Below are positions 53,348-55,267 of a DNA stretch of 64,000 nucleotides, piece after piece. Position 1 is the first letter of the stretch; every line of letters begins with the position of its first letter. The DNA is from Gammaproteobacteria bacterium (GTDB lineage Bacteria > Gemmatimonadota > Gemmatimonadetes > Longimicrobiales > Gaopeijiaceae): assembly GCA_028819075.1 (NCBI GenBank), contig JAPPMM010000038.1, positions 62,001 to 126,000 of the forward strand. The letters run 5' to 3'. The position numbers and the translations under genes are program-made. Below the pieces are notes generated by a model, which worked only from the letters and a program-made list of their open reading frames with translations, made no database searches and was not told where the DNA came from.

Positions 53348-53534
53348 GATCGTGTCCGACCTCCTCTCACGTCCAGCTTGTTCTGAGCCGATCGCCTGCC
53401 CGGAAAGAGCCTAGCCACGGCATGGATGGGCTGCAACGGGTTCGAGCGGGGCTGGACGTTCCATTGGCGGCTCGCCATGGTGCCCGGGTGGCGATGGAGG
53501 CAGGTGCTGGCAGGCATCATTGAGGGGGTAAGGC

Positions 53535-54221
53535 GTGGAAAAAGGCCGGGAGAGTGGACTCCCGTGGCGCTTGCGCGGCCATCTGTATCGGCGCATTCGC
53601 GATTCGGGGCTCGTCCCCAGCCGTGCGGAACTGGGCGAGGGACTCGGAGCGGGAGCTGGCGAAGTGGACCGGGCGCTGGCTCTGCTCGCAGAATCTCACG
53701 TTCTGGTTCTGGACGAGGCGGGCGACGTGCGGATGGCCCATCCCTTTTCCGCCGTCGACACGCCCTTCCGCGTGCATGCCGCCGGGACCGACTATTGGGC
53801 CAACTGCGCCTGGGACGCACTCGCGATCCCGCTGCTCCTCGATGTCGACGGACGGACACCGACCGCCTGCCCCCAGTCCGGTGCTCCCATCGACCTGTCG
53901 GTTGCCGACGGGCGTGTCGAACCCGCCGATGGCGCCGTGGTTCGCTTCCCCGTGCCGGCCCGGCGTTTCTGGGACGACATCGGCTTCACCTGACGCAACA
54001 TCGTTGCCTTCCGGTCGGAAGCGGATGCGGCCCGGTGGGCGGCGAGGCGGGGCGTCGACCTCGGCGCGACGGTACCGGTCGAGACGCTGGGAGAGTTGAG
54101 CCGCGGGTGGTATGCGGGCAGGCTCAGCGACCACTGGCGTCCCTCTTCGGCGGCGTCGAAGCAGGCCCTCCTGGGGGAGGCGGGTCTGGATGGACCCTTC
54201 TGGCAGATCCATCCTTCATGA
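53535..54221 (+). CDS. merB-like: MerB-like organomercurial lyase, probable selenoprotein (in-frame UGA at residue 153)
   Basis: Read through one UGA, this frame gives a 228-residue protein with an N-terminal winged-helix part (residues 10-60) and the alkylmercury lyase core. In E. coli MerB (from memory) the catalytic residues are Cys96, Asp99 and Cys159, and Cys117 is conserved in MerBs. Here Cys91 and Asp94 (ANCAWDAL) and Cys112 (CPQSGAP) are at matching spacing. The position equal to Cys159 falls on UGA at 53991-53993: the text reads DDIGFT-UGA-RNIVAFRSEADAARW, against E. coli SFC-CHVHFFAS...EDWAS. Downstream homology continues to a UGA stop at 54219-54221, which overlaps the next gene as ATGA. 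A SECIS-like hairpin follows the UGA. Without read-through the product is a 152-residue protein lacking the second catalytic residue. The start is GTG at 53535 after GGGGGTAAGG. The alternative is a nonsense mutation. Confidence 0.8.
53991..54027 (+). promoter_or_regulatory. UGA codon with bacterial SECIS-like hairpin
   Basis: UGA is at 53991-53993. A perfect 5-bp stem CTTCC/GGAAG (54008-54012 with 54017-54021) holds the loop GGTC (54013-54016), the same four-base loop as the E. coli fdhF SECIS element. A lower stem CATC/GATG (53999-54002 with 54024-54027) closes it around an internal loop with two Us. The loop starts 19 nt after the UGA (18 nt in fdhF), within the usual bacterial range. This is a hand-drawn fold. 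Confidence 0.7.
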
Positions 54222-55267
54222 GAATCGCGACGGTGCTCGTCAGTCTGGCCGCGGCGCTGGCCATCGCCGGATGCGCCGATCCCGCGCCGGCCACCTCGGT
54301 GGAGGGTCCCCTGGAGGGCTGCCCCGACTCCGGCGCAGGCACAACCATCGGGGGCTTCGCGGGCGGCAGCGATGCCACCGCGTCTCCCGTCCGCCGGCTC
54401 GTGCTCATGGGAGGCGGCCCGGAGGAGGACGGCGCCGCGCGCCGTTTCGTCGAGGCGGCCGCCGGGGGCGATGTCGTCGTGTTGCGCGCGACCGGATCGC
54501 TGACCAGCTATCCGGACTACTTCTCGGCCGAGTTGAGTCCCAGCCCGCGCCCGGCCTCGGTGGTCACGATCCGCACCGACACGCCACCGCTGGCGGACCA
54601 CCCGAGCGTCCTTTGCCGCCTCGACAGAGCGGAAGCGATATGGCTCGCGGGCGGAAGCCAGTGGGACTATCTGGGGCGATGGCCGCATCCGGTCCACGTC
54701 GCCATCAGGGAAGCGTGGCGTCGCGGCGCGGCCATGGGCGGAACAAGTGCGGGGGCGGTTTCGATGGGCGAGGCCGCATTCGATGCCCGGCACGGTACCG
54801 TCACATCGGCCGAGGCCCTGGCGGACCCGGCGGACGTCGCGGTCAGCGTCGGGCCATCCAACATGCCCCAGCCCGAGCTTCGCAACATGATCGTGGACTC
54901 CCACTTCACGGAACGCTCCCGCGAGGGGCGGCTGCTCGCGTTCCTCGGGCGCCTGCTGGCTCAGCACCGCTCGGGTTCGTTCGTCGGGATCGGGATCGAC
55001 GAGGGGGCCGCGCTGGAGATCGAGGACGACAGCTACCGGGTGTCCTCGGCGCGAGGCGGCGCGGTCTGGATGTACGAGGCGACGGGTCCCGCCGTCGCTC
55101 AGCCGGGCAGACCACTCTCGCTGGACGGCATACACCGCGTGCGGCTGGCGGACGGAGCCTCGGGCCGCTGGCCCTTCCTGTTCGAGGAGGCGGAGGGCGT
55201 TCAGGAGCTCGTGGTGGAGGAGGGGGTGGTCCGCGTCGATGCGGGGAGCGGCGCGGGAGCGGGCTGA
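54218..55267 (+). CDS. cyanophycinase/S51-like lipoprotein, coupled to MerB-like gene
   Basis: A 349-residue exported protein with a lipobox (ALAIAGCADP). The core resembles the S51 peptidase family (peptidase E/cyanophycinase): LVLMGGGPEEDG, WLAGGSQWDYLG, the nucleophile in MGGTSAGAVSMGE, and NMIVDSHFTERSREGRLLAF and IGIDEGAAL, which match cyanophycinase closely. The ATG at 54218 overlaps the UGA stop of the MerB-like gene as ATGA. The frame upstream of 54218 is open for another ~260 codons but is a shadow. It would hydrolyse beta-aspartyl or other acidic peptides outside the cytoplasm. How this relates to an organomercurial lyase is unclear. The stop abuts the stop of the convergent aminotransferase. 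Confidence 0.88.
   Translation: MRIATVLVSLAAALAIAGCADPAPATSVEGPLEGCPDSGAGTTIGGFAGGSDATASPVRRLVLMGGGPEEDGAARRFVEAAAGGDVVVLRATGSLTSYPDYFSAELSPSPRPASVVTIRTDTPPLADHPSVLCRLDRAEAIWLAGGSQWDYLGRWPHPVHVAIREAWRRGAAMGGTSAGAVSMGEAAFDARHGTVTSAEALADPADVAVSVGPSNMPQPELRNMIVDSHFTERSREGRLLAFLGRLLAQHRSGSFVGIGIDEGAALEIEDDSYRVSSARGGAVWMYEATGPAVAQPGRPLSLDGIHRVRLADGASGRWPFLFEEAEGVQELVVEEGVVRVDAGSGAGAG

Follow-up and report, generated by a model that had tools for sequence, protein, structure and literature searches.

A MerB-fold protein with a predicted selenocysteine at the catalytic Cys159 position, a likely organomercurial lyase

The MerB enzymes that cleave carbon-mercury bonds rely on Cys96, Asp99 and Cys159, which PMC8261052, where it deals with these residues, describes as strictly conserved and catalytic; variants at position 117 are reported there, untested. 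Selenium-containing relatives are also on record. SaoL (NF040728) is catalogued as a MerB-like organometallic lyase and selenoprotein with the selenocysteine motif CU, and the SAO genes are given as an operon with six selenoprotein genes, in the relevant parts of PMC13188914, which names WP_238493467.1 as a SaoL record. A MerB-like selenoprotein has an entry in PMC9312934, and a table of selenoproteins in PMC7435645 includes an 'organic mercuric lyase MerB2'. MerB-like selenoproteins are already known, and the protein described here, Sec-MerB, is a further variant of them, present in seven phyla as labelled.

Sec-MerB shares with classical MerB (PDB 1s6l, 3f0o and 3f2f) the Pfam family, the predicted fold, equivalents of Cys96, Asp99 and Cys117 at matching spacing, and column 159. 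Unlike classical MerB, it carries a predicted selenocysteine (Sec) in place of Cys159 and has no adjacent mer gene, while classical MerB rows hold five extra residues just before the 159 column. The cut-offs of the NCBIfam MerB models NF009710 and NF033555 are not reached (49.6 versus 193 bits and 41.3 versus 200 bits). MerB2 (PDB 5c17) differs in another way, with Ser where MerB and Sec-MerB have Asp99 and Asp94, and with Cys rather than selenocysteine. Unlike the SAO genes as PMC13188914 outlines them, Sec-MerB has no such selenoprotein-operon neighbour by Pfam: among the eight neighbouring ORFs, two of them without a match, no ABC transporter or thioredoxin family was found that could represent the SAO companions SaoB, SaoC, SaoP, SaoT and SaoX.

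The MerB-family frame and its genomic context

Within the window, the whole 64,000-nucleotide stretch of DNA analysed, the Sec-MerB coding region occupies 53535..54221 on the forward strand. It begins with GTG, preceded by GAGGGGG at 53522-53528, as seen directly in the sequence, and encodes 228 residues with TGA read through. The frame contains a single internal TGA, at codon 153, and its terminal TGA (54219-54221) overlaps an ATG at 54218. With the internal TGA read as a residue, the product matches PF03243 at 94.8 bits (cut-off 27, E 5e-27), above the Pfam gathering score, over residues 71-193, so that the match spans the TGA. The frame is that of a MerB-family protein interrupted by one UGA.

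HMMER alignments to solved MerB chains, with numbering counted along the 3f2g chain alignment, place this UGA (53991..53993, forward strand), the predicted selenocysteine 153, in the MerB Cys159 column. On the same strand and by the same alignments, the codons of Cys91 (53805..53807), Asp94 (53814..53816) and Cys112 (53868..53870) correspond to MerB Cys96, Asp99 and Cys117. All 130 readable Sec rows have both Cys91 and Asp94, and Cys112, which is not strictly kept, is Cys in 119 of 129. The predicted model has the MerB fold and matches Hg-bound MerB and MerB2. The first-pass annotation had placed the UGA at the Cys159 column, equated the other three residues with their MerB counterparts and traced homology past the UGA to a stop overlapping the next ATG; the alignments and the Pfam match confirm all three points.

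Immediately downstream, a Peptidase S51 family gene (54218..55267, forward strand; PF03575, E 4e-7), with a lipoprotein-like start by our own reading, overlaps the Sec-MerB stop by ATGA and is perhaps co-transcribed with it. In neighbour clustering, this gene does not recur beside distant Sec-MerB genes. Pfam assigns six of the neighbouring ORFs to penicillin amidase, epimerase, peptidase S51, class-III aminotransferase, aldehyde dehydrogenase and DPP-IV/S9 peptidase families, and none of the eight scanned is a mer gene. No shared neighbourhood extends beyond close lineages, the largest cluster holding 12 of 102 loci, some from the same genome. Within close lineages only, synteny involves TRAP transporter, DmpA-like, CaiB-like, enoyl-CoA hydratase and HMG-CoA pathway genes, named by sequence reading. 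Of 30 Sec-MerB genomes, 4 have a MerA above the cut-off; in the host the best score, 349 bits versus 454, stays below it. The MerA link of Sec-MerB is weak. Because MerA is mostly absent from the 30 genomes tested, Sec-MerB probably acts alone, outside any mer operon.

Conservation of the codon and of a downstream hairpin

Genome comparisons show which codons occupy the Sec column. The phylum sample comprises 395 genomes, 76 with a match and 319 without, and the 70 loci taken from it, own gene included and weakest matches left out, read TGA in 52 cases (one per genome) and Cys in 14, with four not readable. A contig scan of genomes supplied the best 80 of 231 relatives, a selection that leans towards the Sec family. 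Together these give 151 aligned rows, 146 of them readable at the Sec column, with some genomes present in both collections. In the DNA of the 146 readable loci, only UGA, UAG or Cys codons occur there: TGA in 127, TAG in four, TGC in 13 and TGT in two, which is the pairing of an in-frame UGA with Cys homologues (15 in all) expected of a selenoprotein. The Sec genes in the tree are labelled as Gemmatimonadota, Acidobacteriota, Actinomycetota, Chloroflexota, Fidelibacterota, Myxococcota and Vulcanimicrobiota.

The frame stays open for at least 70 codons past the TGA or TAG in 128 of 131 genes; two of the exceptions hit the contig end after 18 codons and one has 63. Compared with four relatives at 81-86% identity, dN/dS past the codon is 0.22, 0.22, 0.22 and 0.27, and in the 80 codons before the UGA it is 0.15-0.24. 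Downstream values against three more distant relatives are about 0.35, the upstream part being excluded there for indel misalignment. These ratios indicate purifying selection on the sequence past the Sec codon. G224, a second genome of the species, has the same TGA at the column, which argues against a sequencing error. Two full-length database proteins known from proteins alone, P0099 and P0103, have Trp and Gly at the Sec column; these look like TGA that gene callers translated with genetic code 4 or 25, and not like real substitutions.

Two further copies were observed along the way. The homologous stretch at L081:3972-4295 (genome G074) spans residues 67-175 only, contains two TGA codons and looks like a decayed copy. 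The MAG RHO2_bin_50 (L094), labelled Gammaproteobacteria, carries a copy that shares 99% identity with the window gene; most nearest relatives are labelled Gemmatimonadetes, and the Gammaproteobacteria label is probably wrong.

The non-classical Cys forms, from Gemmatimonadota and a Paraburkholderia plasmid, constitute a sister clade that aligns with Sec-MerB over nearly its whole length and has Cys at column 153. Where readable, these proteins differ from Sec-MerB in having Cys in place of Asp94 and Leu or Ile in place of Cys112; they are a possible three-Cys MerB variant. Their nine rows form a single branch with support 100/100, in a tree rooted at its midpoint for drawing, which does not give the direction of the Sec/Cys change. 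The Cys-form loci are L068, L075-L080, L082-L084, L086 and L093:6001-6648. The last of these is the plasmid locus, where no gene is annotated; it comes from the best of nine records in a plasmid search, the only record examined. selA is present in 4 of 11 Cys-form genomes. Among the seven without it, four give RF01852 matches of 47-50 bits at a cut-off of 47, and the two examined are tRNA-Ser.

Bacterial SECIS elements are modelled with a loop of 3-9 nt carrying a G in its first two positions, an upper stem of 4-16 bp, a distance of 16-37 nt from codon to loop and an energy of at most -7.5 kcal/mol (PMC13188914, section 5). Downstream of the UGA lies CUUCC GGUC GGAAG (54008..54021, forward strand), the apical hairpin of a putative bacterial SECIS, with a 5-bp stem and a GGUC loop 19 nt after the codon. 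The loop of E. coli fdhF is also GGUC. Removal of copies and short ends leaves 100 distinct Sec genes and 14 Cys genes. A hairpin with a stem of at least 4 bp and a tetraloop with G in its first two positions, 19 nt after the codon, is found in 96 of the 100 Sec genes (4 miss it), which are related and do not count as independent events, and in 2 of the 14 Cys genes. A synonymous-recoding null, with codons redrawn from the genes' own usage in 200 draws, gives a mean of 30.4 and a maximum of 44. Of the 94 rows with Arg at position 160, 93 use CGG (background 30%), and all 96 rows with Ser at position 161 use TCG (background 34%).

Energies were compared over the 19-nt tip, where Sec genes average -8.05 kcal/mol versus -4.33 in 100 redrawn sets, and 66 of 100 reach -7.5 kcal/mol in the tip alone. 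The tip of the window gene reaches only -5.9 kcal/mol. Its 39 nt after the UGA (53994-54032), the most stable of many stretches examined, give -13.1 kcal/mol when the four inner pairs are enforced. In stem, loop, spacing, this enforced-pair energy and its recurrence across the family, the element fits the SECIS model. Folded without constraints, the 50 nt starting at the UGA score no better than shuffled sequences (z 0.15) and show a different structure; the single-sequence fold is uninformative, and the hairpin case rests on comparison.

Selenocysteine machinery and the amber variant

The host genome (4.40 Mb, 97.6% complete) contains a tRNA-Sec with anticodon UCA and has selA, selB and selD each over cut-off. 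By gene content, the host is able to make selenoproteins. This machinery sits elsewhere in the host genome, so the absence of companion genes from the window does not count against selenocysteine. At E <= 0.001, selA is detected in 50 of 52 UGA-MerB genomes versus 240 of 343 others (Fisher p 7.5e-6), and the two UGA-MerB genomes without it, 89% and 81% complete, have a UCA tRNA-Sec. No tRNA-Sec was found in G403, a 1.9-Mb Marinimicrobia MAG with a TGA Sec-MerB, which points either to an incomplete MAG or to another decoding source. The UGA Sec-MerB of this MAG (L113) nonetheless has a hairpin, CUUUUCCGGUCGGAAAAG.

Four actinobacterial isolates, Geodermatophilus saharensis, Geodermatophilus pulveris, Modestobacter excelsi and Blastococcus capsensis (L152, L157, L167 and L172), have TAG at the Sec column, and in all four genes homology runs on past the TAG to a terminal TGA. 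The tRNA-Sec of each of these genomes has the anticodon CUA, at 64-67 bits. Of the eight TGA genomes tested beside them, seven have a UCA tRNA-Sec and one Marinimicrobia MAG has none. A family-wide search finds matches in 11 of 112 Geodermatophilaceae genomes. The six close homologues among them (72-100% identity; L213-L218) all carry TAG at the Sec column, and of the five distant matches the one examined has Cys there. The TAG rows fall within the TGA rows of the tree and require two changes, with weak internal support.

Decoding of UAG by a CUA tRNA-Sec is described in Geodermatophilaceae for formate dehydrogenase, a UGSC-motif protein and AhpC (PMC5330540, in the parts on these proteins), and the TAG Sec-MerB genes resemble those cases in pairing a UAG selenocysteine codon with that tRNA. 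Neither MerB nor mercur appears as a term in its main text. The literature search, mostly at listing level and without supplements, found no description of selenocysteine in a MerB of Gemmatimonadota or of UAG in a MerB.

By these comparisons, codon and tRNA-Sec anticodon changed together in Geodermatophilaceae, a joint change for which a true stop or a pseudogene gives no explanation. Because the TAG genes match the CUA tRNA-Sec, readthrough by a different tRNA, or an altered code, is ruled out. The amber variant offers the strongest indication of selenocysteine at this column. The first-pass proposal that the UGA encodes selenocysteine gains support from selA, selB, selC and selD, all present in the host, from a column restricted to UGA, UAG and Cys codons, and from the same UGA in the second genome of the species. 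On genetic grounds, the predicted selenocysteine at the UGA is close to certain.

Function, rival readings and significance

The favoured reading, to which we give a probability of about 0.72, is a MerB-fold protein whose UGA at the catalytic Cys159 position is read as selenocysteine and which likely cleaves carbon-mercury bonds. The lyase role is suggested by the retention of Cys91 and Asp94. Selenolates are ionised at neutral pH, at which thiols mostly are not, and selenols bind mercury more tightly than thiols. SelB carrying Sec-tRNA would bind the hairpin, leading to insertion of selenocysteine. The Sec153 selenolate, together with Cys91, would then capture R-Hg+. As in the mechanism of MerB, the leaving carbon would take a proton from Asp94 and depart as R-H. 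The Hg(II) left on Cys91 and Sec153 would finally be handed to cellular thiols. Of the modified organomercurial lyase put forward in the first-pass annotation, the selenocysteine is supported by the column and the sel genes, and lyase activity is likely. By the NCBIfam model, the protein is not SaoL.

It is rather unlikely that this is a genuine MerB-fold selenoprotein with a substrate other than an organomercurial, one that would act on another organometal or organometalloid bond, or bind Hg(II) or another metal without C-Hg cleavage. Such a role would suit the eight neighbouring ORFs without a mer gene, the lack of a shared neighbourhood, the scarcity of MerA, the wide margin by which both curated MerB models are missed and the name of organometallic lyase that PMC13188914, in its entry, gives to SaoL, the described selenocysteine relative. 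Against it, three positions of MerB chemistry are kept, two of them without exception and the third as predicted Sec, and the predicted structure has the fold of Hg-bound MerB and MerB2. Unlikely, too, is that Sec-MerB belongs to a family already described, either SaoL or the 'MerB2' selenoprotein entry. Reviews do list SaoL or MerB-like proteins and 'MerB2' among bacterial selenoproteins, and the SaoL profile matches Sec-MerB at E 5.6e-10. The score, however, is 39.4 bits against a cut-off of 140, and all 131 rows have Thr immediately before Sec, a TU motif, against the Cys of the CU motif listed for SaoL in PMC13188914; SaoL membership was rejected on that score and on the absence of CU. A true SaoL over cut-off was found in none of 400 Chloroflexota genomes. 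By profile score and listed motif, Sec-MerB is probably distinct from the catalogued SaoL.

A broken MerB is extremely improbable. The UGA would then be a true stop that arose by mutation or through a sequencing error, leaving 152 residues as an inert or Hg-binding remnant. Public gene calls do mostly end at the codon: of the 120 homologues listed among 433, 116 have at most 188 residues, and all seven short database proteins examined end in FT or YT, just before it. A true stop, however, is hard to reconcile with TGA or TAG at the same column in 131 of 146 relatives from seven labelled phyla, with purifying selection past the codon, a conserved hairpin and the matched TAG/CUA switch, or with the recurrence of this UGA in G224, from the same species. 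Conservation, selection, the hairpin and that second genome rule out a pseudogene or sequencing error.

Returning to the selenium lyase, we lean slightly towards a broader view, in which an entire branch of the MerB superfamily relies on selenium: Sec at the 159 column would be the rule in seven phyla, with UAG in Geodermatophilaceae and the near Cys forms as one side branch, and the branch would provide stand-alone organomercury demethylation, independent of mer operons and overlooked by databases and merB surveys. If so, it has been overlooked for two reasons: gene calls end at the codon, and screens require Cys159. A 2026 ocean survey, according to the selection step given in PMC12874090, dropped merB sequences without Cys-159. 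Surveys of this kind, together with public proteins cut near the codon, would leave Sec-MerB genes out when methylmercury breakdown is estimated.

The named actinobacterial isolates with the UAG/CUA switch are strains suited to a direct test of the claim. Because selenols hold mercury more tightly than thiols do, a selenocysteine at the mercury-gripping position poses the question of how Hg is released and whether selenium improves demethylation. The stop-type codon at the catalytic Cys of MerB likely marks a selenium version of an organomercury-cleaving enzyme, one missed by surveys that demand that cysteine.
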